A stretch of DNA of 26,040 nt from the IMG/VR virus record IMGVR_UViG_3300049825_000428, positions 1 through 26,040 of that record. One strand, 5' to 3'. The notes beneath the pieces are model-generated. The model was not told the DNA's origin. It worked only from the letters and a program-made list of their open reading frames with translations, and searched no databases. The stretch comes from a virus. The position numbers and the translations under genes are program-made. Numbering within the stretch: the first letter of the stretch is position 1; every line of letters starts with the position of its first letter. Below are positions 2,673 to 26,040 of this stretch, piece after piece.

Positions 2673-3158
2673 GTGCGTGAGTTAACCACCTTTGCCCGTC
2701 TGCTCCGCAATGTCCTCGACAATAGCGGACTAAATCAGCGCGATTTCGCGGATAAATGCGGAATTCCGCAGCCGACTCTATCGCAATTCTTAACGGGTGA
2801 GCGGAGGCCAAAAGAGGATCGCTTGCGCCGTGTAATACAGTCTTTGGGGCTTCCGGAAACTGAAGCTTCTGCGCTCCGTGAGGCCGCCGCGCAAGCCCAC
2901 GTCCCCGCCGGGCTGCGTAAGCATCTCAAGGGAGCGAGTGGGGCCAATGCGCTGATGTTGGCTGCTCTACTGGAGCAATCGGAGGCCAGGCAGGCCGCGT
3001 GGGCGGCTGTCGACCGGGCCGAAATTATGGACCGCTTGGAGAAGATGCCGCTTCGAGCGCTTTTAGAAGAGGCTGCAAAATACGCGACGGCAAATCGTGT
3101 TCTTCTTGATGAGATCGCACAGCTTCGATCAAGATTAGGGGAGGACGCATCCCTGTGA
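2673..3158 (+). CDS. CI-like repressor (XRE family HTH)
   Basis: A 161-residue protein starting at GTG 2673. The HTH at about residues 18-45 reads LNQRDFADKCGIPQPTLSQF and is followed by LTGERRP, a typical XRE repressor pattern. The middle is Ala-rich and helical, and residues about 125-157 look like a coiled coil that could mediate dimerisation. It lacks the S24/LexA-type autoprotease domain of lambda CI, so RecA-stimulated self-cleavage is not expected. No ribosome binding site precedes the GTG, and the possible -10 at 2658-2663 would place the transcript start close to the start codon, as for leaderless lambda cI from PRM. Codon use is more AT-rich than in the late genes. Confidence 0.8.
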   Translation: MRELTTFARLLRNVLDNSGLNQRDFADKCGIPQPTLSQFLTGERRPKEDRLRRVIQSLGLPETEASALREAAAQAHVPAGLRKHLKGASGANALMLAALLEQSEARQAAWAAVDRAEIMDRLEKMPLRALLEEAAKYATANRVLLDEIAQLRSRLGEDASL

Positions 3159-4186: not shown

Positions 4187-5206
4187 ATGGCGAGCATCCA
4201 ACCCAACGGCCACGGCTTCCGCGTGGTCTACCGCAAGGACGGCAAGCAACTCAAAAGCCCCACCGTGCCCACACGCGAGGCGGCGGACTTGTGGATGCGC
4301 GACCATCTGCCGGCGGCGCAGGCGCGGAGCATCTTGGCCCTGGTGGATGCATGGCGGGATGAGGTGCCCAGCACGCACCGCACTGAGGCGGCCCTGGTGC
4401 TGGCGCGGGTGGTGACCATGCGGGGATGGCTGGACCCTACGCGATTGACGGCGGCGGACCTGCATACCTGGACCCTGGCGCATGACGGATTCCGGCGGCC
4501 ACTCCAGTACCTGCTGACGGTGCTGCGCTGGGCGGCGGTCAACCATGGCGCGGCGATCCGGCCGGAGGTGCTGGCCTGGAAGCCGAAGACGAAGGCCAAG
4601 CGCAAGCCCCGGGCCATCCTGCTGACGGAGGAACAGGTGCAGGCCATTCGGGACTGTGCCGGTGGGTATGGCCCCAAGGCCTTCGCCGTGATTGATTACC
4701 TGGCCACCTATGCCGCCCGGCCCATCACTGCATGCCGGCTGACCATGGACGACCTGGATCCGGTGCATGGGCGGTTGACCATCCCCGATGCCAAGCATTC
4801 CGGAGGCTGGCGGCACCTGCTGATGCCGGAGCATGTGGACAAGTGGATGGCCCTGGAGCGTGGTCCGAAATGCAAGGCCCTGTTCCCGCATTACAAGGAA
4901 GACCGCGCCTGGAAGCTGGTGCGGGGGAGCGCCGGCGAGCTGAATTCCTGGTTTAGGAACACGATTAGGAAAAAGCTCAAGCTGCGGGCGAGCATCTACG
5001 ACCTGAAGCGGTACGCGATCACCACGATGCTGGCACGGGGGATTGATCCGGCGACCGTGGCGGAATTCTCGGGCCACCTGGACTTGCAGCAGGTGCTGAC
5101 CTATGCCGCGTCCAATGAGGTACGGCAGGGCCGTGCCTTGGGCCTGATGGCTGCACCTGGTGCCGTTCCTAGCCCCGTGCCTGTGTGCCTACCACTTTCG
5201 ACGTAA
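4187..5206 (+). CDS. int: Tyrosine recombinase (phage integrase)
   Basis: A 339-residue site-specific recombinase that would insert and excise the phage at its attachment site. Residues 1-45 look like an arm-binding beta region (GFRVVYRKDGKQLKSPTVPT). About 48-125 is a helical core-binding domain, and 145-320 the catalytic domain. Visible catalytic candidates are R178 (TYAARPITACRL), K203, H297 (SGHLD) and the nucleophile Y306 (VLTYAAS). Box II is atypical: where H-x-L-R is usual, this protein has Y271-D-L-K274-R275, so the second arginine may be R275, shifted by one, and the first histidine is a tyrosine. The ATG at 4187 has only a weak GGA upstream. A tRNA-Arg-like sequence begins nine bases after its stop, a typical integrase/attP arrangement. 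Confidence 0.9.
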   Translation: MASIQPNGHGFRVVYRKDGKQLKSPTVPTREAADLWMRDHLPAAQARSILALVDAWRDEVPSTHRTEAALVLARVVTMRGWLDPTRLTAADLHTWTLAHDGFRRPLQYLLTVLRWAAVNHGAAIRPEVLAWKPKTKAKRKPRAILLTEEQVQAIRDCAGGYGPKAFAVIDYLATYAARPITACRLTMDDLDPVHGRLTIPDAKHSGGWRHLLMPEHVDKWMALERGPKCKALFPHYKEDRAWKLVRGSAGELNSWFRNTIRKKLKLRASIYDLKRYAITTMLARGIDPATVAEFSGHLDLQQVLTYAASNEVRQGRALGLMAAPGAVPSPVPVCLPLST

Positions 5207-6338: not shown

Positions 6339-6559
6339 GCAAGCGAACGACGGTGGACACAACCACGATGACATATTCCGGCGTTTACTGCGATCCCATG
6401 GGCTATTTTGGGCAGGTTTCTGACCCCTCGTCCTATTTCATCCGATGGGAAGAGGCGAACACCAAGAAGCGGCCACGGTGGACTCCATTGGATGTTTCGG
6501 CCAGTGGGCTTGCGATTCCCCGCAAGCGGTATGTGCGGGCGCTTGTGGTGACGAAATGA
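6335..6559 (+). CDS. Small phage protein, unknown
   Basis: A 74-residue protein starting at GTG 6335, overlapping the upstream stop. Its first residues (MSKRTT) resemble the VKKRTT start of the gene before it. The rest has aromatic and polar residues (MTYSGVYCDPMGYFGQVSDP) and a basic end (PRKRYVRALVVTK). No domain recognised. Its stop overlaps the ATG of the terminase small subunit as ATGA, so it is part of the same translationally coupled string. Confidence 0.55.
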   Translation: MSKRTTVDTTTMTYSGVYCDPMGYFGQVSDPSSYFIRWEEANTKKRPRWTPLDVSASGLAIPRKRYVRALVVTK

Positions 6560-7020
6560 CCGCTAAGCGACCACTGCAACGTAAGGGGCTGGACAAGCAC
6601 GCCCTGATGACGGCGTTGTGCGAGCACATCGCCAATGGGGAGAGCCTACGGAAGGCCTGTCAGCATGACGGGATGCCCGACAAGGCGACGGTATTGCGGT
6701 GGATGGGGGGAGAGGGGGCAGAGGCAAAATTACTACGCGACCATTACGCGCGCGTAAAGGAAGAGAGTGCCGAGGTATACGCTGACGAGATCGTGGAAAT
6801 TGCTGACGAGGACCCGGGCCGTAATGAGTTGACCGGCACCGTAGACGCTGGCGCGGTGGCACACCAGCGGCTGCGCGTTGATGCGCGGAAGTGGGTGGCC
6901 TCAAAGCTTAAGCCGAAGAAATACGGCGACCGCCAAGAGATCGAGCACAGCGGCGGCATCGACCTGACCGTTGCGCTGGCCGATCGGCTGGCCAAGGCGC
7001 GGGCACGTGCCGGCGGTTGA
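6556..7020 (+). CDS. terS: Terminase small subunit
   Basis: A 154-residue protein that would recognise phage DNA and recruit the packaging motor. I chose ATG 6556 because it overlaps the previous stop; the frame is open further upstream but non-coding in character. Residues about 10-50 form a helix-turn-helix typical of the family (SLRKACQHDGMPDKATVLRW: a short-wait-then-W pattern). A helical middle follows (EVYADEIVEIADEDPGRNEL). The C-terminal signature LRVDARKWVASKLKPKKYGD is common to this family of small terminases. It immediately precedes and overlaps the large subunit gene. Oligomerisation into a ring is family knowledge, not seen here. Confidence 0.88.
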   Translation: MTAKRPLQRKGLDKHALMTALCEHIANGESLRKACQHDGMPDKATVLRWMGGEGAEAKLLRDHYARVKEESAEVYADEIVEIADEDPGRNELTGTVDAGAVAHQRLRVDARKWVASKLKPKKYGDRQEIEHSGGIDLTVALADRLAKARARAGG

Positions 7021-8767: not shown

Positions 8768-8803
8768 GCACTGCCTATGCTCCCCCGGTTGCGCGGTATA
8801 GTG
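8768..8803 (+). promoter_or_regulatory. Phage promoter, copy A (leaderless type)
   Basis: The block GCACTGCCTATGCTCCC (8768-8784), an 11-base spacer and GTATAGTG (8796-8803) recurs at 15316-15351 with the same spacing and only one change in the 25 conserved positions. TATAGT fits a -10 hexamer, and the expected transcript start falls at about 8809-8810, on the ATG at 8810. No good TTGACA-like -35 is present; the conserved CCTATG occupies that place. No ribosome binding site precedes the ATG. Confidence 0.65.
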
Positions 8804-8809
8804 CGCCAC

Positions 8810-9271
8810 ATGGGCAAGCCGTGCATCAGCTTTGCATCGGAGCGGTGGGCGGATGCCTGGCGCGATGCCGAGGCCCTGGTGGCGGCGCACTATGCCGAGG
8901 TGTCGGGGGCCGATGAGCCGGCGGTGGCGGTGGTGCCGTCGATCTACACGGAAGCCGATGACCTGGGCCGGATGGCGGTGTTTACCGTGCGTCTGGCTGG
9001 TGAACTGATCGGCTATGCCTGGTTCTTCACATATCAGGACCCGCACCATGGTGGCGAGCTGGTGGCCACGGCGGACGCGCTGTACCTGCGGCCGGAGTGC
9101 CGAGTGGGGCAGACGGGCGCCGACCTGATCCGCTATTGCTGGGGCGAGCTGCTGGCGCGTGGCGTGCGGTCGGTGGCCATTGGTGTGCGTCCGCTGCGCG
9201 ACTTCGGGCCGGTCTTGCATCGCTTGGGCTTCGCGCCGGCTGAAACCACCTGGGTCAGGCGGGCCGCATGA
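8810..9271 (+). CDS. GNAT-type acetyltransferase
   Basis: A 153-residue protein from ATG 8810, directly downstream of the promoter-like block with no ribosome binding site; an ATG at 8777 would include the promoter and is less likely. The order of elements fits GNAT enzymes: an N-terminal helix pair, a strand (MAVFTVRLAGELIGYAWFFT), a second strand (ELVATADALYLRPECRVGQT) where the acetyl-CoA loop is expected, a helix (GADLIRYCWGELLARGV), and the C-terminal HRLGFAPAETTWVR. The pyrophosphate loop is a variant (R-V-G-Q-T-G instead of Q-x-x-G-x-G/A). Such proteins occur in podovirus gene sets between terminase and portal; the substrate is unknown. Confidence 0.75.
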   Translation: MGKPCISFASERWADAWRDAEALVAAHYAEVSGADEPAVAVVPSIYTEADDLGRMAVFTVRLAGELIGYAWFFTYQDPHHGGELVATADALYLRPECRVGQTGADLIRYCWGELLARGVRSVAIGVRPLRDFGPVLHRLGFAPAETTWVRRAA

Positions 9272-10618: not shown

Positions 10619-12301
10619 ATGCAAAAACCATCACTCCGTGCGCGCGTCTCCCAGATGCGGTCTTCGCTCCTTAAAGAGCGGAGCACGTGGGAGCCGCATT
10701 GGCGTGACGTAGACCAGTGGCTGCTGCCTGATCGTGTCCAGTTCAACAAGACGGACTCGAACCAGGGGCAGATCAAAAACACCAGCATCATCGACAGCAC
10801 CCCGACGATGGCGGTCGGGAGCCTGGGCGCTGGCCTGATGTCGGGCATCACCAGCCCGGCGCGTCCCTGGTTCCGCCTGGCGCCATCGCTGGCAGCCCTG
10901 GCCGAGGATCTGGAAGTGCGCCAGTGGCTGGACGAGTGCCAGCAGATCATGATGGACCACTTCCGGTCCTCGAACCTGTACCAGGCGCTTCCCAACTGTT
11001 ACGAGAATCTTGGGGCCTTTGGCGTTGATGCCGTCTTCTTCGATGAGGAGCAGGACGCGGAGCAGGGAGAAGCCTTCCGCTTCTACAACCTGCCCCTGGG
11101 GTCCTATTCGCTGTCCGCAAACGCTCGCGGCGTGATCGACTGCATTGTCCGCGACCTGACCATGACCGTCCGTCAGACGGTGGAGCAGTTCGGGGAAAGG
11201 GCCGTGTGCCCCGCCACCAAGGCGGCCCACGACAACGGGCAGTACGAGAACCCGGTGAACATCGTCCACGCGGTGATCCCCAGCCCGGATTACGTCAAGG
11301 GTAGCCCCTTGGCCGTGGCGATGCGCTACATCTCGGTGTTCTACGAGGAGGCATCAGACGGTGACGCCATCCTGGCCCGCACGGGCTATCGCCAATTCCC
11401 GGTGCTCTGCCCGCGCTGGAAGGTGACCGGGCGCAACGTCTACGGCTTCGGCCCTGGTCGGACCATCATCGGTGACTGCAAGGCGCTGCAAAGCTATGAG
11501 CGCAAGACGGCCGAGGCGGTGGCCAAGGAAGTCAACCCGCCGCTGCTGATGCCGTCCAGCTTGCGCGGCAAGGAGGTGTCGCTCATCCCTGGCGGCATCA
11601 CCTACTACGACGAGACGGACACCAAGCCGGGCGCGCGCAGCCTGTATGAGAGCCGTTTCAACATCGACGGCGCCGAGATGAAGGCGAATGGATGCCGTGG
11701 GCGCATCCAACGGGCGATGTTCGAGGACCTGTTTCTGATGCTGGCCAACAGCGACCGGCGCCAGGTCACGGCGGAAGAGATCCGCGCCAAGCAGGAGGAG
11801 AAGATTCTGGCCTTGGGGCCGGTGCTCGAACGGCTGAATGACGAGTTGCTGGATCCCCTGATTGACCGCGCCTTCGACATCCTGAGCCGTCGCGGCGCCT
11901 TCCCGCCGCCGCCCGAGGTGATCGCCGGGCAGCCGATCAACGTGGAGTACATCAGCATTCTGGGCCAGGCCCAGAAGATGCTGCAACTCGGCACCGTCGA
12001 CCGGCTCTTGCAGGTGGTGGGCAACATGGCCGCCGCCAATTCGACCATTTTGGACAAGGTCGATATGGAAGAGACCATTGAGTTTTACAGCGATGCCCTG
12101 GGCGCCCCATCGAAACTGCTCAAGACCAAGGAGCAGTTCGCCGCGATCCAGCAGGCCCGCGCCCAGGCGGCCGCAAAGCAGCAGATGCAGGCCGATGCCG
12201 CCAATCAGGCACAGGTGGCCAACACCCTGAGCCAAACCCCGACCGGCGGTGACACCGCTCTGTCCGCGCTGATCCAGCAGCAGACGGGAGCGGTAGCATG
12301 A
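10619..12301 (+). CDS. Portal protein (T7-type head-to-tail connector)
   Basis: A 560-residue portal that forms the dodecameric ring at the packaging vertex (family knowledge). The start at ATG 10619 is fixed by AGGA just upstream. The N-terminus has the family pattern R-S-T-W-E-P-H-W-R-D-V-D-Q-W-L-L-P, followed by IIDSTPTMAVGSLGAGLMSG and SPARPWFRL, both characteristic of podovirus connectors. The middle (VDAVFFDEEQDAEQGEAFRF; CPRWKVTGRNVYGFGPG) fits the wing and stem regions, and RQVTAEEIRAKQEEKILALG the C-terminal stem helix. The last 60 residues are Gln/Ala-rich, like the barrel region. The length is within the usual range, and the next gene overlaps its stop. Confidence 0.95.
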   Translation: MQKPSLRARVSQMRSSLLKERSTWEPHWRDVDQWLLPDRVQFNKTDSNQGQIKNTSIIDSTPTMAVGSLGAGLMSGITSPARPWFRLAPSLAALAEDLEVRQWLDECQQIMMDHFRSSNLYQALPNCYENLGAFGVDAVFFDEEQDAEQGEAFRFYNLPLGSYSLSANARGVIDCIVRDLTMTVRQTVEQFGERAVCPATKAAHDNGQYENPVNIVHAVIPSPDYVKGSPLAVAMRYISVFYEEASDGDAILARTGYRQFPVLCPRWKVTGRNVYGFGPGRTIIGDCKALQSYERKTAEAVAKEVNPPLLMPSSLRGKEVSLIPGGITYYDETDTKPGARSLYESRFNIDGAEMKANGCRGRIQRAMFEDLFLMLANSDRRQVTAEEIRAKQEEKILALGPVLERLNDELLDPLIDRAFDILSRRGAFPPPPEVIAGQPINVEYISILGQAQKMLQLGTVDRLLQVVGNMAAANSTILDKVDMEETIEFYSDALGAPSKLLKTKEQFAAIQQARAQAAAKQQMQADAANQAQVANTLSQTPTGGDTALSALIQQQTGAVA

Positions 12302-12983: not shown

Positions 12984-15314
12984 GTGTCGGGCCTGCGTAC
13001 CGATGGCCTGGGGGACAATTACACCCTGGTCGCGGCAGCGCTGGCCCTGGGCGGACAGATCATCTTCCCCCCGGGTGACATCCGCATCGTCCCGCCGGCC
13101 GGCAACGGCTATGTGCTCACGCTGCTCAGCGCATCGCGGGTCAGCTCCATCGGCGGCAAACAGGGCACGCGCCTGATCTTCGAGGGCACGACCGTCAGCG
13201 GTGGCACCATGGTGCTATTGGGCATCCAGGGCAACGTGGTGTGCGACGGTATCTGCGTCGTCAATCGACTGGTGACCGGATCAGCAGCGGCAACGCCAGT
13301 TATCGGCATCGAGTTCCTGGGCAGCGGGTCCAACCTGTGGAACGGCTATCTGGACGGCGGCACCATCACCACCTGGGGCGTCAGCGGCATTACGCAGGCC
13401 AACCCGGCGGTCGTCACCACCACCAACACCCACAACATCACCGGGCCGCTGACCATCACGGCGGCGTCCAAGGCGACCAACTGCCAGGTGACGGCCACGG
13501 CGCACGGGGTGCTTCAGGCTGGCGGCACGTTCGTCATCAGCGGCGTTGTTGGCATGGTCGAACTGAACGGCCTTACGGTCACGATCAATTCTATTGTCGA
13601 CGCCAATACCCTGACCTTGTCCGTCAATTCGACCGCGTTCTCCACCTACACCAGCGGCGGCACCATGAAGCAGTATTGCGTCATGGCCAGCGTGGGCGGC
13701 ATGACGCAGATCAATGGCATGCAGTTGGTCAACGCGGTCACGTCGAACACCATCACCCTGGCGGTGGATTCGTCGGCATTCACTACCTACACCAGCGGCG
13801 GGACCATCGACTTCGGCAAGCGTGACCGCACCTGCCTGGGCATTTCGATGAATGCCAGCCTGGTGTACGACGACATCGAAAGCGATCACTTCAACGTGAC
13901 CGGGTGTAGCTTCGGAATTTTCCAGTCGAACAGCAATACCTACCGCAAGACGAACTTCCGCGTTCAGACCTGCAAATACTACGGCAACTTCTTCGAGGAC
14001 GTGTCGCCCAACTGCCCGAACGCCAAGAATGGTGACTTCACCGTCACCAACTGCGATGTCTACAACGGGCAGACGCACCGCATGTGGAACGAATATCCGA
14101 ACCAGGGGCATCTGTGCATCAGCGCCGCATCGGTGAAGCGGTTGAAGGCATACGGCAATCGCCTCAAGGTGCGCGACACCGCCGGGCGCTTCTGCAAGGC
14201 CCTACACTTCGAGGAATGGTGCGAGGATTTCATCATCAACGGCAATACCGCCATCGTCGACGGCCAGACCGGGACGGCGGCTTACGGCTTCTATTTCCTT
14301 GATGCCAATGTGAGCGGCACCCGCCGCGCTCCGACCGGGCAGTGCGCCAACAACATCGCCATCCGCTGGGGCGGCTATGCCGCTACCTGGGCGCGCAGTG
14401 GCACCACCTGCACCATCACCAGCGTGGCGCACCCGTACAACACGGGCGATGAGATCTCCATTACCGTCACGTCCGATGCCACGGCGGTGCCGCTCACTTC
14501 GACCGTGGCCTATTTCGGCGTCTACACCTGCACCAAGCTGACGGACGACACCTTCACCATCACTGTGCCCAATGCCGGCGGCGCCAGCGGCACCTGCACG
14601 GTCGGCAAGGCGGGCGGGCAAGGGTTCACCCACAACGAGTCGGCCACCGGGCCGAAAGGCGTCCAGTGCACCAGCAACGCCGCGCAGGGGCGATTCACCT
14701 GGGGCTTTAACTGGCCCAACATGATGGAGAGCACGACCGAGTCGACCACGTTCAACTGCCTGATGGATAACCTTTCCCAGGGCTGCGTGGGCGGGTATCG
14801 CATCGTCCAGGGCGGCATGTCGATCCGCCGCAACGTGTCGGTGGATTGCGATACCCACGTGTTGCTGGTATCCGGCATCATGAACGGCCACTTCTTCAAG
14901 GGGTCGGCGGCCACGGCGTACATCACCATCACGCTTCCCGGCCAGATCATCGACCCTGAGTTTGAGGTGAAGGGGACGGATCTGGCCAGCGGCGTCAATA
15001 CCATCGTGCTGGCCAACTACACGGCCAACTGCGCACTTGCCGGGCGCGCAAACATGTTTGCCCTCGCTCCATTCAGCGTATCGCCGTCGCAGCCAGGCCC
15101 CAGCACCGTCCAGCGGTCGCAGGTGTACAGTGGCACCGGAACCACCTGCACGCCGAATGCCACCGATGCGGTCACCGTGACCAGCGGCGCCCTGCTGACC
15201 GACATTGCCCTGAGCACCACCGGCCCGCAGTTGCGCTGCACGGTGACGACCAGCGCCATTTCGGTGAAGGTTATCACGTCGGTGAAGATCCAGGGCGCGA
15301 TCCTCTTCAAGTGA
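12984..15314 (+). CDS. Tailspike/tail fibre-like beta-helix protein (start disrupted)
   Basis: At least 776 residues are open from a GTG at 12984, which has no ribosome binding site; the real N-terminus is probably about 25 residues further upstream, where an in-frame TAA interrupts it. The opening (DGLGDNYTLVAAALALGGQI then IFPPGDIRI) matches the first coils of pectate-lyase-like phage tailspikes. Residues about 150-275 hold FCCH-type modules, each ending (T/Y)TSGGT, the second a partial tandem copy 47 codons after the first. Parallel beta-helix-like segments follow (TYRKTNFRVQTCKYYGNFFE; IIDPEFEVKG). A third variant module (TCTITSVAHPYNTGDEISIT) lies near residues 475-550. The role is receptor recognition or capsule degradation, by analogy. 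Confidence 0.75.
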   Translation: MSGLRTDGLGDNYTLVAAALALGGQIIFPPGDIRIVPPAGNGYVLTLLSASRVSSIGGKQGTRLIFEGTTVSGGTMVLLGIQGNVVCDGICVVNRLVTGSAAATPVIGIEFLGSGSNLWNGYLDGGTITTWGVSGITQANPAVVTTTNTHNITGPLTITAASKATNCQVTATAHGVLQAGGTFVISGVVGMVELNGLTVTINSIVDANTLTLSVNSTAFSTYTSGGTMKQYCVMASVGGMTQINGMQLVNAVTSNTITLAVDSSAFTTYTSGGTIDFGKRDRTCLGISMNASLVYDDIESDHFNVTGCSFGIFQSNSNTYRKTNFRVQTCKYYGNFFEDVSPNCPNAKNGDFTVTNCDVYNGQTHRMWNEYPNQGHLCISAASVKRLKAYGNRLKVRDTAGRFCKALHFEEWCEDFIINGNTAIVDGQTGTAAYGFYFLDANVSGTRRAPTGQCANNIAIRWGGYAATWARSGTTCTITSVAHPYNTGDEISITVTSDATAVPLTSTVAYFGVYTCTKLTDDTFTITVPNAGGASGTCTVGKAGGQGFTHNESATGPKGVQCTSNAAQGRFTWGFNWPNMMESTTESTTFNCLMDNLSQGCVGGYRIVQGGMSIRRNVSVDCDTHVLLVSGIMNGHFFKGSAATAYITITLPGQIIDPEFEVKGTDLASGVNTIVLANYTANCALAGRANMFALAPFSVSPSQPGPSTVQRSQVYSGTGTTCTPNATDAVTVTSGALLTDIALSTTGPQLRCTVTTSAISVKVITSVKIQGAILFK

Positions 15315-16031: not shown

Positions 16032-17033
16032 ATGGCCACTATCGCGGCCCTCTATCCCACGCTCGTTGATGTGGTCAAGCGGACCGACCCCAACGGCCAG
16101 CTTTCCCGCACGGCGGAGCTGCTGTCCAAGGTCAACCCGATCATCCAGGACGTGCCCATGGTCGAGGGCAACCTGCCGACCGGCCACCGCCTGACCGGGC
16201 GCAATCTGCTGCCCGCCCTGGGCTGGCGCCGGTACAATGGCGGCATCGCCCCCAGCAAGTCGGGCACCGAGCAGTACGACGAAACCTGCGGCATGCTGAA
16301 CGGCTTCAGCATCGTCGACTGCGACCTAGCCAAGCTGAACGGCAACGCTGCCGCTTTCCGCGCGGACGAGGACAACGCCTTCCTCGCCTCGGCCAACATC
16401 GAAATTGCCACCGGCATCTTCTACCACAACACCGCCACCGTGGCCGAGAAGTTCCTGGGCCTGTCGCCCCGCTTCAACGCGACCAGCGGCAATCCCGCAG
16501 CGGCCCAGATCATCAAGGCCGACGCCAGCGCTTCGGGCGCGGACCAGACCAGCGTCTGGTTGGTGGGCTGGAGCCCCCAGACCGTGTTTGGCATCTACCC
16601 CAAGGGCCAGGCCGGCGGCTTGGCGACCGAGGACCAGGGCAAGCAGCGCATTGTTGATGCGTCGGGCAACGTGTACATGGCCTGGCAGACCGAAATCAAA
16701 TGGAACTTCGGCGTGGCCGTGCGCGATCACCGCTACGTGGTGCGCCTCTGCAACGTCGACACCTCGGCCTGGAAGGCCGACCTGTCGGCCGGCGCTGACC
16801 TGGTCGATGGCCTGATCCAGATGCGTGCCGCCCTCTGGGAAACCGACACCGTCAACCCGGTGTACTACATGAACCGCTCGGCGTTCAGCATGCTGAATCG
16901 TCAGTTGGCGAAGAAGGCCACCACCAACTTCCTTGAGTGGATTGGTGAGGGCAAGGGCCGCATCGCGGTCTTCCTGGGCATCCCCATCCGCATCGTCGAT
17001 GCGATCACCAGCACCGAAAGCGTTGTGTCCTAA
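16032..17033 (+). CDS. Major capsid protein (GP7/Bbp17 type)
   Basis: A 333-residue capsid protein with its start fixed by AGGAG upstream. The family order is complete: ATIAALYPTLVDVVKRTDPN at the N-terminus, VEGNLPTGHRLTGRNLLPAL at about 43-62, SKSGTEQYDETCGMLNGFSI, and AAAFRADEDNAFLASANIEI. Later come F-Y-H-N, GLSPRFN, SVWLVGWSPQTVFGIYPKGQ, and VAVRDHRYVVRLCNVDTSAW near the C-terminus. This is the HK97-fold capsid type I know from BPP-1-like podoviruses and several other phages. No insertion or truncation is seen. It should be the most abundant late product, consistent with its own hairpin-linked ribosome site. Confidence 0.93.
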   Translation: MATIAALYPTLVDVVKRTDPNGQLSRTAELLSKVNPIIQDVPMVEGNLPTGHRLTGRNLLPALGWRRYNGGIAPSKSGTEQYDETCGMLNGFSIVDCDLAKLNGNAAAFRADEDNAFLASANIEIATGIFYHNTATVAEKFLGLSPRFNATSGNPAAAQIIKADASASGADQTSVWLVGWSPQTVFGIYPKGQAGGLATEDQGKQRIVDASGNVYMAWQTEIKWNFGVAVRDHRYVVRLCNVDTSAWKADLSAGADLVDGLIQMRAALWETDTVNPVYYMNRSAFSMLNRQLAKKATTNFLEWIGEGKGRIAVFLGIPIRIVDAITSTESVVS

Positions 17034-17987: not shown

Positions 17988-18608
17988 GTGTCCAGTCAGA
18001 TCGAAATCTGCAACCTTGCGCTGATCCATGCCGGGCAATCCCAGAGCATCGCCGCATTGAACGAGAGCAGCACGGCCGCCGCCGTGTTGACCACCGTCTG
18101 GCCCATGGCCCGCGATGCTGCCATCATGGCCGCCCCGTGGGACTTTGCTCAGCGGTGGGGCGCCTTGGCGCAGTTGCCAGCCTCGCCCACCACGGACTGG
18201 CTATATGCCTACGCCTGGCCCACCGACTGCTTGCAGATCAATCGCATCCTGTCGGGGGCCGGTCGCATCGAGGCGGCCCCGGTGGCCTTTGCCTGCGGCA
18301 ATTCCGGCGGCCAGTCCCTGGTGCTGACGGATCAGCCGGACGCAGTGGCGGACTACACCATCCGCGTCACCGATGCCAGCCAGTACCCGCCCGACTTCGT
18401 CATGGCCCTGTCCATGTACCTGGCATCCCTGATCTGCCCGGCCCTATCGGTGAAGTTCGACGTGGCCCAGGGGCTGCGCGCCGAGTACAAGCGCCTGATC
18501 ACGGCGGCCATCACCAGCGCCGCCAATCGGCAGGTTCCCGGCGAGGCTGCGGCCTGTGAGTTCCTGGCGGTGCGGGATGCCACCTGGCCCGCCACCTGGC
18601 CCGCGTGA
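17988..18608 (+). CDS. Tail tubular protein A-like (head-tail adaptor)
   Basis: A 206-residue protein from GTG 17988 with GGAGG upstream. The N-terminal part follows the family pattern: IEICNLALIHAGQSQSIAAL, then A-V-L-x-x-V-W-P-M-A-R-D-A-A-I-M-A-A-P-W-D-F-A, which is the signature of T7 gp11-like and P22 gp4-like adaptor proteins. The middle (YAYAWPTDCLQINRILSGAG) and the end (YPPDFVMALSMYLASLICPA) also fit. It would form the ring between portal and tail nozzle. The final residues carry a short repeat, ATWPATWPA. Complete by length. Confidence 0.88.
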   Translation: MSSQIEICNLALIHAGQSQSIAALNESSTAAAVLTTVWPMARDAAIMAAPWDFAQRWGALAQLPASPTTDWLYAYAWPTDCLQINRILSGAGRIEAAPVAFACGNSGGQSLVLTDQPDAVADYTIRVTDASQYPPDFVMALSMYLASLICPALSVKFDVAQGLRAEYKRLITAAITSAANRQVPGEAAACEFLAVRDATWPATWPA

Positions 18609-18611
18609 CGC

Positions 18612-21290
18612 ATGCCAACCAGCGCCATCAATCTTACCTTTGCCGGCGGTGAGGTCGCCCCGGAATTGTACAACCGGGCGGACCAGACCAAATATCAGAG
18701 CGGCCTCGCCCAGTGCCAAAACTTCCTGGTTCAGCGCTTCGGCACGCTGACCAACCGGGCCGGCACCGTCTATCTTGGCCCCTGCGCCCAGTGGATCAGC
18801 GGGGCCAAGGCCTCGCGCATGCTGCCGTTCATCTACAGCGCCAGTGTCACCTACGTCCTGGAGCTGACGCACCAGCGTTTCCGGCTGCTGGCGGATGGCG
18901 CCTATGTGACCGTCACGCCTACCGCATGGTCCAATGTCACCGCCTATGTGATTGGCGATCTGGTCAGCCTGAGCGGGACCAACTACTACTGCCGGCAGGC
19001 GCACACCAACCAGTCGCCGCCCAGTGCGGCCTATTGGATGGCCATGACCGGCAGCTATCTGGAGGTGCCAACCCCCTGGAGCGCGTCCGATCTGCCCTTG
19101 CTGCAAACGGTGCAGAGCGCCGACGTGGTCACGGCCACGCATCAGTCGTACCAGCCCTACGAGATCCGCCGCTACAGCGGCACCAAGTGGACCGTCCAGC
19201 GGGCGGCCATCGTGCCGTCGATCATCGGCCCCACCTCGATTTCGTCGACGGTTGGCGTTGCTGGCGCGGAGGTCTACCTCTACAAGGTCACGGCTGTCGG
19301 TACCGACACCTTCGAGGAGAGCCTGGCCGGCACCATCGCGCCCAAGGTGATCACCGGCATCACCCTGGCGGCTACCGCTGTCGTCACCTCGGTGGCCCAC
19401 GGCTTTGCCAATGGCGATGAAGTGGCGCTGGCTGCCGTGGTCGGCATGGTCGAGATCAATGGGCTGTATGCCACCGTTGCCAATGTGACGGCTAACACCT
19501 TCGAGCTGCTGGGCGTCGATTCCAGCGCCTGGACGGCCTACGTCAGCGGCGGGACGGCGGCCAAGACCGCGTACTCCGTCACCTGCGGGGTTCCCGGCGC
19601 GACCACTCCCAACGTGGTCAGCTGGACCGCGTCGGCAGGGGCCGGCTCGTACAATGTGTACCGCGCCATCAACGGCGTTTTCGGCTTCATCGGCATCGCC
19701 CAGGGCGCCAGCTTCCGCGATACCGGCATCAATCCCAGTACCAGCTACACCCCGCCCACCTACCGAAACCCCTTCATCGGCAGCACCAGCTTGCCGGCGT
19801 GCGTGGCCTACTACCAGCAGCGGCTGATGTTCGCCAACACGACGGCCAAGCCCGAAACCATCTGGGGCAGCCGCATCGGCAACTTCCGCAACTTCACCAT
19901 GTCGCTGCCCGTCCAGGACGACGACGCCGTGACCTGGACCATGGCCGGGCGCCAGGTGCAGACCGTGCGGCACATGATCGAGCTGGGTAAGCTGATCGTC
20001 TTCACCGATGCCGGCGTCTGGACCATCGAGGGCGACACGGACGGCGCGTTGAAGCCGACCGCGATCAACCCCAAGCAGCAGGCCTATGGCGGGGTGGGCA
20101 CGGTGCCGCCCGAAGTGGTGCAGAATACCGTGATTTATGCCTCGGCCCGTGGGGCCGTGCTGCGCGATCTGCGCTACGACTTCCAGGCGGACGGCTACCA
20201 GGGGCGCGACCTGACCGCCTTTGCCCCGCACCTGTTCCAGGGGCGGTCCATCGTCCGCATCGCCTATCAGGAAATGCCGCATAGCGTGCTGTGGGTGGTG
20301 CGGGATGACGGCGTCCTGCTGGGCCTGACCTACGTGCGCGAGCATGACATTTGGGCCTGGCACCGGCATGTGACCGATGGTCTGGTCCTGGACGCATGCG
20401 TGGTGCCGGAAGGCGATGAGGACGCCCTCTACCTGATCGTCCAGCGGACCATCAACGGGGTGGTCCAGCGCTATATCGAGCACGTGGCCGGGCGCACCGT
20501 TGAGGACCTGGCCGTGGATGCCCACTTCGTCGATTGCGGCGTGGTCTACAACGGGCGCAACGCCACGGCGACGACCCTCACCGCTTCGGGTGGCAGCACC
20601 TGGGCCTATGGCGAGTCGTTCACCCTGACGGCCAGCGCGGCGCTGTTCTCGGGTGGCGACGTGGGCAAGTCCTGGCGCTTGACCGGGGCCGATGCCCTGA
20701 CGGTGGATCTGTTGGTGATGGCCTACGGGTCGTCCACCTCGGTCACGGTCACGCCGGCCACCACCGTCCCGGCCAGCCTGCGCGCGGTCGCCACCGCCAC
20801 CTGGTCGGCCCTGATCACCACGATGTCCGGCCTGTCGCACCTGGAAGGCAAGACCGTGGCCATCCTGGCAGATGCCGCCGTGCTGTCCCCGGTGGTGGTC
20901 AGCGGTGGCGCGGTGGCCCTGGGCCGAGCCTATGCCGTGGTCCATGCAGGCTTACCGTACACCAGCCGTGCCCAGACCCTGGATCTGGCGACCGTGCAGG
21001 CGGAAACCTTGGTCGACAAGCAGAAGATCATCCCCCGCGTGACGCTGTCCTTCAAGGATAGTCGCGGTGGCTTTGCCGGCAGTGATCCGGCGGGCGCGAC
21101 CCTGCGCGAGGTCAAGCAGACCCCGGGATCGTCGGTCTTTGGCGCACCCATCGGCCTGTATAGCGGGACGGCAGACGTGGACGTTGGCGCCCAGTGGAGC
21201 CGCACCGGCCGCGTCACGGTGGAGCAGCGCGACCCGCTGCCCATGACCTTGCTGGCGATCATCCCCCGCCTTGAGCAGGGCGGGACCTGA
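18612..21290 (+). CDS. Tail tubular protein B-like (tail nozzle)
   Basis: An 892-residue nozzle protein starting three bases after tail tubular A. The start INLTFAGGEVAPELYNRADQ, followed by K-Y-x-x-G-L-A-Q-C-Q-N-F-L-V-Q-R-F-G, is the T7 gp12-type signature. Two inserted modules are visible. Residues about 104-146 (AWSNVTAYVIGDLVSLSGTN then YYCRQAHTNQSPP) resemble a carbohydrate-binding module of the chitin-binding CBM5/12 kind. Residues about 245-320 (VAHGFANGDEVALAAVVGMV then EINGLYATV, ending YVSGGT) are an FCCH-like module also found in the tailspike. The remainder is a beta-propeller-like body (PETIWGSRIGNFRNFTMSLP). It closes the tail and may touch the host surface. Confidence 0.9.
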   Translation: MPTSAINLTFAGGEVAPELYNRADQTKYQSGLAQCQNFLVQRFGTLTNRAGTVYLGPCAQWISGAKASRMLPFIYSASVTYVLELTHQRFRLLADGAYVTVTPTAWSNVTAYVIGDLVSLSGTNYYCRQAHTNQSPPSAAYWMAMTGSYLEVPTPWSASDLPLLQTVQSADVVTATHQSYQPYEIRRYSGTKWTVQRAAIVPSIIGPTSISSTVGVAGAEVYLYKVTAVGTDTFEESLAGTIAPKVITGITLAATAVVTSVAHGFANGDEVALAAVVGMVEINGLYATVANVTANTFELLGVDSSAWTAYVSGGTAAKTAYSVTCGVPGATTPNVVSWTASAGAGSYNVYRAINGVFGFIGIAQGASFRDTGINPSTSYTPPTYRNPFIGSTSLPACVAYYQQRLMFANTTAKPETIWGSRIGNFRNFTMSLPVQDDDAVTWTMAGRQVQTVRHMIELGKLIVFTDAGVWTIEGDTDGALKPTAINPKQQAYGGVGTVPPEVVQNTVIYASARGAVLRDLRYDFQADGYQGRDLTAFAPHLFQGRSIVRIAYQEMPHSVLWVVRDDGVLLGLTYVREHDIWAWHRHVTDGLVLDACVVPEGDEDALYLIVQRTINGVVQRYIEHVAGRTVEDLAVDAHFVDCGVVYNGRNATATTLTASGGSTWAYGESFTLTASAALFSGGDVGKSWRLTGADALTVDLLVMAYGSSTSVTVTPATTVPASLRAVATATWSALITTMSGLSHLEGKTVAILADAAVLSPVVVSGGAVALGRAYAVVHAGLPYTSRAQTLDLATVQAETLVDKQKIIPRVTLSFKDSRGGFAGSDPAGATLREVKQTPGSSVFGAPIGLYSGTADVDVGAQWSRTGRVTVEQRDPLPMTLLAIIPRLEQGGT

Positions 21291-21291
21291 T

Positions 21292-21771
21292 ATGGCCCTG
21301 GCCCCCCTAGCCCTGTCCCTGGTCGGCACCGGGATGCAGATGAATGCCCAGCGTCAAGCTGGGCAGGCGAACCAGCGCGCCAACAATTTCAACGCGGCGG
21401 TGTCCGAGCAGGAAGCCCGCGATGCGCTCGCCCGTGGCGAAGAGACGGCGGCCAACTACGGCACCCAGATCAAGGGCCTGATCGGCAAGCAGAAGGCGTC
21501 CTACGCGGCCCAAGGGATCGAGGTCAACAGCGGATCAGCGGCCGACGTGCAGGAGAGCGCCCAGGTCATCGGGGACCGCGACCTGCGTACCATCCGGCTG
21601 AACGCCATGCGCGAGTCCTGGGGCTACAAGATGCAGGCCAAGAACTACAAGATTGCCGGCAAGAATGCGGCGACCGCTGGCAACTTCAATGCCGCTGGCA
21701 CCGCGCTGCAAGGCGCTGGCGATGCCTACGGTAAGTATACCGACTACAAGACGCGCACGGCGGGGGCCTGA
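21292..21771 (+). CDS. Internal virion protein (gp14-like)
   Basis: A 159-residue protein; ATG 21292 follows the nozzle stop by one base. The N-terminus is hydrophobic (MALAPLALSLVGTGMQM), then a long Gln/Ala-rich helix follows. The segment GKQKASYAAQGIEVNSGSAA, followed by R-D-L-R-T-I-R-L-N-A-M-R-E-S-W-G-Y, is the conserved core of podovirus core/ejection proteins of the T7 gp14 kind. Such proteins are stored in the head and enter the host envelope with the DNA. Position before two larger ejection genes agrees. Confidence 0.82.
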   Translation: MALAPLALSLVGTGMQMNAQRQAGQANQRANNFNAAVSEQEARDALARGEETAANYGTQIKGLIGKQKASYAAQGIEVNSGSAADVQESAQVIGDRDLRTIRLNAMRESWGYKMQAKNYKIAGKNAATAGNFNAAGTALQGAGDAYGKYTDYKTRTAGA

Positions 21772-21774
21772 GCC

Positions 21775-23484
21775 ATGCCGACCGCCCCCACCCTTGACGG
21801 CCAGCAGATCCAGACCGCGCCCCTGCGCGGCGGCAAGCGGGACGCCAACGTGTCGCCGGATGTCTATGGCGCCGGCATGGCCCAGGGCGTGTCCAGCCTG
21901 GCCAACGACACCCAGCGCATCTGGAACCAAGCCCAGGACCAGGCCAACCAGTCGGCGCTGAACGATGCCCAGGCCCAGGCGGATGCCCAGGCCAACGACC
22001 TGCAACGCGAGCACCAGGGCCTGAGCGGCGAGAACGCGATCAGTCAGGCCGACGCCATCAAGGCCAAGTGGGCCACGGCTACGGGCGACATCGTCAAGAA
22101 GACCCTGACCAACGGCGCCCAGCGTCAGGCCTTCGCCCAGTGGCAGGCGCACCGCACCAACAGCTTCAATTCGGCCATCGACGACCACGCCTTGCGCGAA
22201 GGGCAGCAGCAGCAGGGCGCCGACTATCAGGCGCGGGTGGCCACGGCGGTGCAGCGGGCGGTGTTGAACAAGGACAGCCCCGAGCAGCAGGCCGCCGCCT
22301 TTGCCGACATGGACGCCGCCACCCAGGGCTTTGCCGCTGTGCGGGGCGCCACGCCCGTCCAGGTGCAGGCCCTGTCCCAGCAGAATGCCGGCGCGTTCTA
22401 TGGCGGGATCATCACGGCCCACCTCGATGCCGGCAATGATCTGGCAGCGGCCCGCGTCCTGGACGCGCACAAGGGCGAGATGGACGCCCAGACGGTGTTG
22501 CAGATGTCCAAGGCCACGGACATGGGCAGCACGATGGGCGAGGGTCAGCGCCAAGCCGCTGCGATCTACAGCCCGGGCAAGACCCTAGAGGCGATGTACG
22601 CAGAAGCGGACGGCATCGAAAACCAGAAGGTTCAGGAGGAAACGAAGGCCCGGATTGCCACCAAGTACCGCATTCACAAGCAGACGGTCGCCGACGATCA
22701 GGACCAGTCGTTTCAAGAGGGATGGAAGACCCTGATCACCACGGGCGATCTGTCAGCGATCACCGCGCCCGAACGGGTCCGGATGGGCGATGACAAGTTC
22801 GGTGCCCTGGATGCTGCGGCGGCACGCATGAACAGGCGCGAGGAGGTGAAATCGGACGGATACCGCTTCTACGAGCTGCAAACGCTCTCGTCAGTGTCCG
22901 CGACCCGTGACGACTTCTTGAAGACGAATCTGGCACAGGAGTACGCCAAGGGGAATATTGATCGGTCCGAGTTCAAGGATCTGTCCGGCCTTCAGACCAG
23001 TCTGCGAAATACCGCCGACAAGGCCAGGCAGGACCAGCTTACCTCAGGCATCACCACCCGTAACGAGGTGGTCAACCGCGCCATGGTGGCGGCGGGGCTT
23101 GACCCCGAGGACTATGTCCGCGTCAAAGGGAAGGTGGTGTCGAATCCCAAGTCCATCGAGTTCCGCCGCCAGCTTGACCGCGCACTGGCTGGGATGGTGG
23201 AACCAGGGAAGGAGCCGACGCCCGACCAGGTGCAGGCGGCGGCGGACGGGCTGCTCATCGACCATCCCGAGGTCATCACGGGGTACATCTGGAACACCCC
23301 CAAGCACACGCGCGCCTTTGAGATGCCCGGCGCTGGGCAGGTTGCCTACAGCCCACGACAGGTGCCCAAAGAGTTCTGGGACCAGAAGGTCAGCGCTGCC
23401 GACGCTCGCGGCGAGCAGCTGAGCGATACCGACATTATGGCCATGTGGAATGCCTCAGTAGTCGGTGGCGCCCATGCCAAATGA
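21775..23484 (+). CDS. Internal virion/ejection protein (gp15-like position)
   Basis: A 569-residue protein from ATG 21775, almost entirely helical with high Ala, Gln and Asp content. Residues about 30-130 are Gln/Asn-rich (QRIWNQAQDQANQSALNDAQ), and the middle holds repeated helices, including AARVLDAHKGEMDAQTVLQM, similar to helical-repeat ejection proteins. The C-terminal 150 residues are more mixed (YVRVKGKVVSNPKSIEFRRQ). There is no enzyme motif. It occupies the place of T7 gp15 between the gp14-like and the largest internal proteins. The gene overlaps the next one by 11 bases. The call rests on order and composition. Confidence 0.75.
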   Translation: MPTAPTLDGQQIQTAPLRGGKRDANVSPDVYGAGMAQGVSSLANDTQRIWNQAQDQANQSALNDAQAQADAQANDLQREHQGLSGENAISQADAIKAKWATATGDIVKKTLTNGAQRQAFAQWQAHRTNSFNSAIDDHALREGQQQQGADYQARVATAVQRAVLNKDSPEQQAAAFADMDAATQGFAAVRGATPVQVQALSQQNAGAFYGGIITAHLDAGNDLAAARVLDAHKGEMDAQTVLQMSKATDMGSTMGEGQRQAAAIYSPGKTLEAMYAEADGIENQKVQEETKARIATKYRIHKQTVADDQDQSFQEGWKTLITTGDLSAITAPERVRMGDDKFGALDAAAARMNRREEVKSDGYRFYELQTLSSVSATRDDFLKTNLAQEYAKGNIDRSEFKDLSGLQTSLRNTADKARQDQLTSGITTRNEVVNRAMVAAGLDPEDYVRVKGKVVSNPKSIEFRRQLDRALAGMVEPGKEPTPDQVQAAADGLLIDHPEVITGYIWNTPKHTRAFEMPGAGQVAYSPRQVPKEFWDQKVSAADARGEQLSDTDIMAMWNASVVGGAHAK

Positions 23485-24004
23485 TCTGATCGGCAGTGTC
23501 ACCAGTGGCGCGTTGGCGGCACCTGTCCCCGACCCGGCCCCGCTTGCCCAGGACGTGCCCGACACGACCCAGCCCGAGCGCGACGACCTGTTGGACCAGG
23601 TGATCGGCGCGCGGCGCGCACGGTTGGACGCCAGTCTCCGGAATGCGGTGCGGCAGACGCCGGACACCCATGCGGAAATCCTTGCCCTGTCGACTGCCAC
23701 ACGCTTGCCGGCGGAACTGGTCGCACGCAACCTGGACACCATCCGGCAGAAAGTCCGCCTGAGCGGCATTGATCAGGAGCGTATCCGCAAGGATCATCCT
23801 GAACTAGGCACCTGGCTTGCGGATCCGGATAACTCGGCCATCGGCAGCGACGATGTCCCGGGCCTGGAGAATGTTCACCGGGCCATGCGGCAGCTGGGCG
23901 CCGGCCCCAAGGACGACCCCTGGGCCTACTCCCCCCGGGCTTCCGCTTCGATGAGGCCGGGCACATCCTGGAGCCGCAGGGCGATGGTCTGGCCACGCGC
24001 CTGA
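23474..24004 (+). CDS. N-terminal part of the large ejection/polyvalent protein (frame 1)
   Basis: This frame starts at ATG 23474 and gives 176 residues. The first 154 codons look coding: a helical segment LLDQVIGARRARLDASLRNA, then ILALSTATRLPAELVARNLD and VRLSGIDQERIRKDHPELGT, a usual opening for very large podovirus ejection proteins. After a run of six C at 23931-23936 the frame turns into an Arg/Ser-rich tail and stops at 24004. In the -1 frame the sequence continues as a clear long protein (next entry) without its own start. I conclude that one gene covers both, joined by a sequence error, mutation or programmed slip. Confidence 0.65.
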   Translation: MPNDLIGSVTSGALAAPVPDPAPLAQDVPDTTQPERDDLLDQVIGARRARLDASLRNAVRQTPDTHAEILALSTATRLPAELVARNLDTIRQKVRLSGIDQERIRKDHPELGTWLADPDNSAIGSDDVPGLENVHRAMRQLGAGPKDDPWAYSPRASASMRPGTSWSRRAMVWPRA

Positions 24005-26040
24005 ATGGCATCCCCGAGCTGCAAGCCGAACTGCGCCGCCGGGGCGACGACGCCGCCGCCGAGGCGATGGACCGGGCGCAGAACGTCAGCGACTTGGGGC
24101 AACGCTTTGGCATCTGGTCGGACTACGTGGCGGGCATGGCCTCGTCCACGCTTGCTACCCGGCGCATGCTGGGCACGGATACCTACGACGACCGAACTGC
24201 GACGGGGGATCTTGCCCAGGCGAGCGCGGACCGCTCCCCGGGCATCATGGGTGACCTGCGGCGCGGCATCGGCGGCGTGGCGGGCGATGCTCCCCTCCTG
24301 GCCATCGGTGGCGTTTTTGGCCGCGTTTCTTCTGGTCTGATGCAAGCCACCCGTGCCCGGGCTATCCTGGAGCCGCTCCTGGGCCGGGCCGGCGCCAAGT
24401 ACGCCGGCAATGCCGCCCTCGCCGCCGCTTCGGTTCAGCCCCTGGCCATCCGCGAGGGCATCAATGATGCGGACCAGCAGGGCGCGGCCTATGGCGCCAT
24501 GTCCTGGCTGATCGAGACGGCGGTTCCTGGTGCCTTCGGACGTACCGGTATCCAGCGTGTCCTGACCCCGGGGGTTGACGACCTGTCCGCCGCCTGGACT
24601 GGCGCTGGCCGCCACTTGCTGACCCATGCCGGGCTTGAGGCCGGGGATGAGACGGCGACCGAGTTAGGCCACGCCTTGCAGGAGTCCTTCAGCGGTGCCA
24701 ATCCCAACGCCCTGGACCCTGACCAGTTGATGCGCCGGTTGACCGTCGCCGGCCTGCTGGGCGGTGCCATGGGTGGCGTTCTGACCGCGCCCGAGGCCAT
24801 CCGTGGGCGCATGGAGGAGCAGGCCCTGAACCTGCGGCAGTCAGCCCGGGAAGCCGTTGCCCTGCGTCAGGCATTCGCTGCGGTCCAGGCGACGCCGGTC
24901 CGCGAACGCTCCCCCGAGCGCCTGGCCGATCTTGCCACCGCGTCGACCGGCGGAACGGGCGAGCGGGTCTATTTCCAGCAGAAGGCATGGGACGACCACT
25001 GGCGCGGGCGCGGGCAAGATCCGGATGCCATGGCCCGAGCGATGGGCGTTGACCCCCAAGCCCTGGCCACCGCGCGCGGGTCGGGTGCCCAGATCGCCGT
25101 CCCTACCGGGCGCTTCCTGTCCCAGACGGGCAGCGAGGATGCGCCACTGATCGAACAAGCCACCATGCGGCCCGAGGCTGTGGCCGGCGCCAACCTGGAC
25201 GACGGGTCCAACGCCCTGCGCGCCCAGGTCGAGGGGCTGATGGCTGGCCAGGTGGGGCAGGCCACCAAGGACCAGCCGGACGCCAGCGCCGCCACCCAGA
25301 CCGATGCCCAGCGCATCCATACGGCTGTCGCTGACCAGCTTGCCACCGCAGGAGCCAGCGAGCGCACCACCCGCCATCAGGCGGCCCTCTGGTCCGAGGC
25401 CTTCGCAACCTTCGCTGACCGTTTCAATGCTGGGCGCCGGGCCAAGGTCGAGGACGCCGCCGCCAAGCAGTGGGCCAAGGATCACAGCGGCAACCAGCCA
25501 ATGAAGACCGGCGCCGATGGCGCGGTCAATCCCGATTGGCAGCAGACCCTGGACGCCGCAGAAGCCGCCACCCCCAAGGTGTCGGCCTGGGACCTGTTCA
25601 GCCGGTATCAGCTCACGGTGGCCAAGCGGCGCTTGGCGGATGCGCCGCAGGCGGGGCGGAATCTTGCCCAGCCGGCGTACCATGGGACGGGCAACAGCGA
25701 GCCGTACGACCGCTTTGCCTATGACAAGGTCGGCGGGCCGGGTGGTGAGGGCGCGCAGGCCTTCGGGCATGGGCTCTACTTCACCGGGAAGAAGGAGATT
25801 GCTGCTCATTATCGGGCCGCTCTCTCCAAGGCGGCTTTCCCCGATGGTGATCCGCGCAACGGCATTGCGACCCTCCTGGCGGCCAAAGGCGAGGAGGCTT
25901 TGGCGACGATCCGTAAGGCATACGCGAGCTTGGGGGACCAGTTAGAGTCTGCCATCATCGAAGCTCGCGCCGCCAACGAGAAACGCGGGCGAATCTACAC
26001 TGCCGAGATCCCCGATGACCACGAAATGCTGGCGTGGGAC
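23935..26040 (+). CDS. Large ejection/polyvalent protein, continuation with ADP-ribosyltransferase-like domain (partial)
   Basis: This frame is open from the C-run to the window end (about 702 codons) with no credible start, so it is the continuation of the 23474 gene by -1 frame change. It begins GFRFDEAGHILEPQGDGLAT. Hydrophobic Gly/Ala-rich helices near 24240-24540 (GIGGVAGDAPLLAIGGVFGR) could insert into membranes. Near 24960-25190 comes a module common in large phage polyvalent proteins (RVYFQQKAWDDHW...IAVPTGRFL). From about 25675 the motifs AYHGTGNSEPYDRFAYDKVG, AFGHGLYFTGKKEIAAHY and YTAEIPDDHEMLAWD match the ART-PolyVal type of ADP-ribosyltransferase; H-G-T and G-L-Y-F are the NAD-binding strand signatures. 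The end is outside the window. Confidence 0.8.

Follow-up and report, generated by a model that had tools for sequence, protein, structure and literature searches.

Organization of the locus

The window, by which we mean the whole stretch of DNA analysed, is a virus record taken in full, 26,040 bases long. Judged from its other genes, the contig comes from a temperate short-tailed phage, since genes for an HTH repressor, a tyrosine integrase, a small terminase, a portal and a major capsid protein are present. Its right edge holds part of a giant-protein gene with an ADP-ribosyltransferase (ART)-like domain. The features that concern us are:

2673-3158, HTH repressor
4187-5206, tyrosine integrase
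6445-7020, Sf6-like small terminase
10619-12301, portal
16032-17033, major capsid protein
17988..18608, + strand, tail tubular protein A type (phrog_394, E=3e-41)
18612..21290, + strand, tail tubular protein B type (phrog_376, E=5e-193)
21271..21771, + strand, gp14-like internal virion protein (phrog_418 'internal virion protein', E=4.2e-33)
21775..23484, + strand, gp15-like ejection (internal virion) protein, helical nearly throughout (phrog_10475, E=9.5e-21)
23465..24004, + strand, N-terminal piece of the giant protein, in a different frame from the ART, with LPD22 at about 23630-23905
24067..>26040, + strand, polyvalent/ejection protein ORF, 658 aa seen, with a Gly/Ala-rich middle region followed by the ART
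25669..26040, + strand, N-terminal half of the ART domain (protein P0001, residues 535-658), placed by alignments, by profile scores against shuffles and by column conservation

The portal is 38-42% identical to portals of Vibrio, Cobetia, Pseudomonas and Salmonella phages. A GNAT acetyltransferase-like gene (8777-9271) lies between the large terminase and portal genes. E1_FCCH repeats are common to two virion proteins: the 776-aa protein at 12984-15314 has two (PF16190), and the tail-B protein (18612-21290) has one, together with a chitin-binding CBM_5_12 segment.

The gene order in the window is tail A, tail B, gp14-like, gp15-like and giant protein. The gp14-like protein also matches Pfam T7_gp14 (E=6.4e-6), scoring 26.6 bits where the cut-off is 27. 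An AlphaFold model of the gp15-like protein (pLDDT 82) has its best PDB match in 9jyy_G, a T7 core protein (prob 0.89); its fold matches also include 7k5c_A, the tunnel of the T7 ejectosome. The E-values are weak. The same order recurs in relatives: in all 37 relative loci with a gp14-like ORF, this ORF precedes the ART ORF on its strand, tail B does so in 35 of 35, and a gp15-like ORF stands directly before the ART ORF in 30, counts that include a few loci that are overlapping pieces of one contig. Because the tail A, tail B, gp14-like and gp15-like genes precede it in this recurrent order, the ART gene occupies the position of T7 gp16, a podovirus ejection protein, and the ejection-protein cluster assumed in the sequence-only reading is supported. 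A fibre or tailspike gene follows the giant-protein gene; it is visible only in the relatives.

The product of 23465..24004 matches LPD22 (PF18834, E=3.4e-16, 59.7 bits) and phrog_9880 (E=1.7e-9), and lies in a different frame from the ART piece of the giant protein (23465-24067). Since homology to the closest relative, L002, extends through both pieces in order, and a single frame holds both LPD22 and the C-terminal core in L002 and in nine cultured phages, the window copy is either truly interrupted or carries an error of sequencing or assembly. To judge from the frames, the phage could carry a defective copy of the gene; alternatively, the break may be a sequencing error.

The ART half-domain at the right edge

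The frame 24067..26040 is stop-free up to the contig end and already open upstream of 24067. All the peptides on which the domain was originally recognised, YHGTG and two more, lie in this one open + frame, within the last 124 of its 658 residues. The YHGTG motif is Y538-H539-G-T-G, from base 25678, with H539 at 25681-25683. Y571 (25777-25779) lies within GEGAQAFGHGLYF, and Y582 (25810-25812), 11 residues further, within IAAHY. The peptide AFGHGLYFTGKKEIAAHY is encoded in the same frame as YHGTG, and YTAEIPDDHEMLAWD forms the final residues before the contig end. Because the window is the complete record, the domain is cut about halfway and the remainder is unreadable here; among viral contigs, none extends the sequence beyond 26040.

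Direct Pfam and NCBIfam scans of the ART protein gave no matches, its PHROG match is weak and to a family of unknown function, and a tblastn search of cultured phages with all 658 aa returned nothing. A search for a close copy of its linker found none.

Relatives and conservation

L002, found using the window domain, is about 60% (60-61%) identical to it over the shared ART part and carries a complete 246-residue ART domain inside a single 2,444-aa frame. The ART is the best-kept part between the two: the linker, LPD22 and gp15-like parts are 30-36% identical, and a separate alignment of the linker of the window ORF (residues 49-459) with the L002 protein gives 37%. Over the ART part dN is 0.37 and dS 1.90, the latter near saturation, and purifying selection on this part is therefore indicated.

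With the intact L002 domain as query, 13 loci were found, and their alignment led to hundreds more: as a query it gave at least 555 confirmed matching stretches in one virus collection. There are also 71 matching stretches in bacterial genome contigs from many phyla. The chromosome of a cultured gut bacterium, Phocaeicola vulgatus ATCC 8482, has two related ART copies (L155 and L157).

A profile (HMM) was built from 78 relatives, with the window and L002 left out. The window protein scores 79.7 bits against it, and the highest of 1,000 shuffles of the same protein reaches 4.5 bits; the match to this ART subfamily is far above chance. Wherever the 80 relatives agree without exception (H, G, F, G-E-G, Q, G, G, Y and Y), the window has the same residue.

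Fold and family membership

Since the window copy is split and cut, structure predictions and searches used intact relatives. In a PDB fold search with the AlphaFold model of the L002 ART domain (pLDDT 89), the leading matches are almost all ADP-ribosyltransferases. The best is 9k3a_B of cyanophage A4 (prob 0.99), a pre-ejectosome according to the PDB title, followed by MbcT (prob 0.91-0.94), ParT, ExoA, tankyrase, PARP2 and PARP15. Single E-values are weak (0.007 and up, thus above 0.001) and TM-scores low, perhaps, going by the model, due to a long helical insertion between strands 2 and 3. Despite these weak single values, the agreement on ARTs among the matches to the predicted structure is not a matter of chance. 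Among viral structure models, 35 match at E<0.001, several of them named ART-PolyVal-like. A single-sequence search gave a PARP14 match (E 0.03) in which HGT is aligned with HGT and YGWGLYFA with YGKGTYFA, and a profile search of PDB sequences gave chance-level matches only. Taking profile and fold together, we regard the identification of an ART-like domain, as first suggested, as nearly certain.

The more specific assignment, to the ART-PolyVal domains of phage polyvalent proteins, is supported with a qualification. ART-PolyVal (PF18760) matches 70 of the 80 relatives at E<0.01 (best 1.8e-8), and DUF3990 matches 20, but Pfam ART-PolyVal gives no match to the window's own truncated domain, and L002 reaches 17.4 bits as a domain, under the curated cut-off of 31.2 bits. 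The link to ART-PolyVal therefore runs via other members of the subfamily. That the protein is of the polyvalent kind is seen from LPD22 in the window and from LPD22, the ART and a HESGH zincin motif together in L002.

The catalytic motif

The His of strand 1, in an HG[ST] motif, is H539 in the window; it is found in 80 of 80 aligned sequences and falls in strand 6-12 of the model. The Tyr of strand 2, in GxG(L)YF, is Y571, likewise 80/80, in strand 41-44. A second Tyr, 11 residues after the first, is conserved in the relatives. PARP1 has the same 11-residue spacing (Y896, Y907).

The third motif residue lies beyond the end of the window. The downstream catalytic Glu or Gln that had been anticipated is contradicted by the relatives, whose strand 5, mostly x-N-[YF]-V-[IV]-[FYW], has an invariant Asn (79/79; N233 of the model) and not the Glu, Asp or Gln of H-Y clade ARTs. 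From the pattern NYVIFD against EYIVYD, we infer that this Asn occupies the place of the PARP1 catalytic Glu. For the Tox-ART-HYD2 clade an Asp has been reported in strand 5 (PMC5512222). In the relatives of the window ART an Asp near this strand is variable: it follows the strand in 53 of 79 and is found in the sequence KYLD in 65 of 79, the KYLD Asp being missing from L002 and L009. Among the relatives the His and both Tyr are invariant, and the third residue is Asn, not an acid. Since mono-ARTs whose third acidic residue is replaced are active via substrate-assisted catalysis (PMC4695847), the Asn is compatible with activity but speaks against poly-ADP-ribosylation.

A common scaffold with variable cargo

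The C-terminal core of L002 is common to 40 cultured or named phage records, including Bordetella BPP-1 Bbp10, and the N-terminal LPD22 was found in all nine giants scanned from these records. In L002, SR18 and BPP-1 the core begins at a ...LSTxLHE(A/S)GH zincin motif. What precedes the core differs. In L002 and vir555 it is an ART of the same subfamily as that of the window; in Caulobacter SR18 (79 bits), ctEw122 and DC33 it is a classical ART-PolyVal, above the cut-off; in BPP-1 it is PBECR1, in Carin1 PBECR5 and in AF LPD23; and in CP2, HU1 and PS25B the domain scan recognised none. The cargo domain ends at most about 60 residues before the core in SR18 and BPP-1, and lies further upstream in Carin1, ctEw122, AF and DC33.

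The idea that the HESGH zincin motif is a speciality of the ART proteins was considered and rejected. Because the motif begins the core in phages without this ART too, the zincin belongs to the scaffold; among 85 giants, a narrow search located a HESGH-type motif in 19, no more than 200 aa beyond the ART. Since the region before the zincin varies among ART-PolyVal, PBECR nuclease and nothing recognised, the ART looks like exchangeable cargo. Swapping of enzymatic domains is what defines the concept of polyvalent proteins (PMC5512222); the arrangement is therefore a clear example of that principle, not a new one.

Two side observations concern other giants of this kind. One relative (L036:5401-14895) has a methyltransferase domain directly before the ART. 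Bbp10 of BPP-1 (L174) carries the annotation of a crystallin-motif protein; ahead of its zincin-led core it has LPD22 and a domain resembling PBECR1 nucleases, and it might be an RNase that this well-studied phage injects.

It is tempting to propose, though only tentatively, that a conserved podovirus ejection scaffold, with LPD22 at its N-terminus and a zincin-led core at its C-terminus, carries ahead of the zincin exchangeable cargo for attack on the host (H-Y-N ARTs, ART-PolyVal, PBECR nucleases, methyltransferases), that the zincin perhaps frees this cargo once it has been ejected, and that the cargo here is a mono-ADP-ribosyltransferase in which an Asn takes the place of the catalytic acid.

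Proposed function

Among the predicted protein-modifying domains of polyvalent phage proteins, ARTs are reported to be the most frequent, and the prediction is that they enter the host by injection and modify its proteins (PMC5512222); we found no experimental test of a polyvalent-protein ART in the literature. Considering the ART-type sequence and fold, the conserved His and Tyr residues, the domain order in intact relatives and the ejection-gene synteny, we think that the gene probably encodes a giant ejection protein, in the T7 gp16 position, that takes into the cell an ART able to mono-ADP-ribosylate a host target. The ORF would be the middle of a giant ejection protein (about 2,400 aa in L002) of a temperate short-tailed phage, laid out as LPD22, the ART as cargo in the middle, a zincin-type peptidase motif and the C-terminal core, the last two taken from the relatives. 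This protein would be packaged in the head alongside the gp14- and gp15-like proteins and ejected before or together with the DNA; its delivery into the host is likely. Inside the cell the ART might be released through cleavage by the giant protein's own zincin. It would then bind NAD+ through its His/Tyr/Tyr motif and mono-ADP-ribosylate its host target at the start of infection. Modification of a host protein is the most probable function of the ART, with a somewhat better than even chance of being the right one.

Could the domain, once injected, consume NAD+ as an NADase or NAD+ phosphorylase instead of acting as a transferase, depleting or re-routing NAD+, for instance against NAD-dependent defences? 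The second-best fold match, MbcT, is an NAD+ phosphorylase, and the third motif is without the usual acidic residue. NADase or NAD+ phosphorylase activity of viral ARTs has also been discussed (PMC9503650). Nevertheless, we consider this unlikely, as the sequence motifs are of the PARP type (HGT, GxGxYFA, Tyr+11), ParT, which is also a fold match, is a transferase, and mono-ARTs with a non-acidic third residue are active (PMC4695847).

The ART fold might also be a structural part of the ejection apparatus, without catalytic activity, since in cyanophage A4 the solved pre-ejectosome incorporates the ART-like gp27 and certain ART-fold domains, e.g. that of PARP13, are inactive (PMC7955679). The invariance of the His, both Tyr, the G-E-G-x-Q loop and the Asn over about 80 divergent relatives makes this quite improbable; moreover, related scaffolds hold other enzymes or nothing recognised at this place, which fits cargo better. 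A third alternative is that the ART is not injected but works in the cell that makes the phage, or on the phage's own proteins, for virion maturation or superinfection exclusion. This would suit a gene within the structural block, which is normally expressed late, but fits poorly with the fusion of the ART to LPD22 and an ejection scaffold in the gp16 position, and T4 Alt is a known injected ART (PMC5512222); we give this possibility very little weight.

Comparison with known systems

The nearest family is ART-PolyVal (PF18760; Tox-ART-HYD2 clade, Iyer et al. 2017), with which the present subfamily shares the strand 1 His (YHGT) and the strand 2 Tyr (GxGLYF); in both, the ART is part of giant phage proteins that also contain LPD domains and a zincin. 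The present subfamily differs in its length of about 246 residues, with the long helical insertion, and in the invariant Asn of strand 5, where Iyer et al. describe Asp. T4 Alt offers a functional precedent, being a head-carried, injected ART, but it belongs to the R-S-E clade and is a dedicated protein outside the polyvalent proteins (PMC5512222).

Cyanophage A4 is likewise short-tailed and has a giant protein, gp27, adjoining tail and internal-protein genes. A4 gene 27 encodes the chain 9k3a_B (an identical, full-length match); the protein contains YHGT...GSGTYF, and its gene adjoins an 'internal protein' gene. A fold relative of the window ART is visible in a solved pre-ejectosome. In contrast to the proteins described here, gp27 is shorter (1,717 aa) and its host is cyanobacterial; compared with the subfamily profile, it gives no detectable match.

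Bordetella BPP-1 Bbp10 and its relatives (phrog_9880 scaffold) have the LPD22 N-terminus and the C-terminal core, which begins at a ...LSTFLHE(A/S)GH zincin motif, and the Bbp10 gene comes after internal virion and transglycosylase genes, but just before the core Bbp10 has a PBECR1 nuclease domain and no ART. Such scaffold phages are concrete, cultivable systems for asking whether podoviruses inject host-modifying enzymes within their DNA-ejection machine. The ART subfamily is large and goes together with a T7-like order of ejection genes, and the domain in the window adds one more example to an established class, that of ART cargo in a giant polyvalent podovirus ejection protein.
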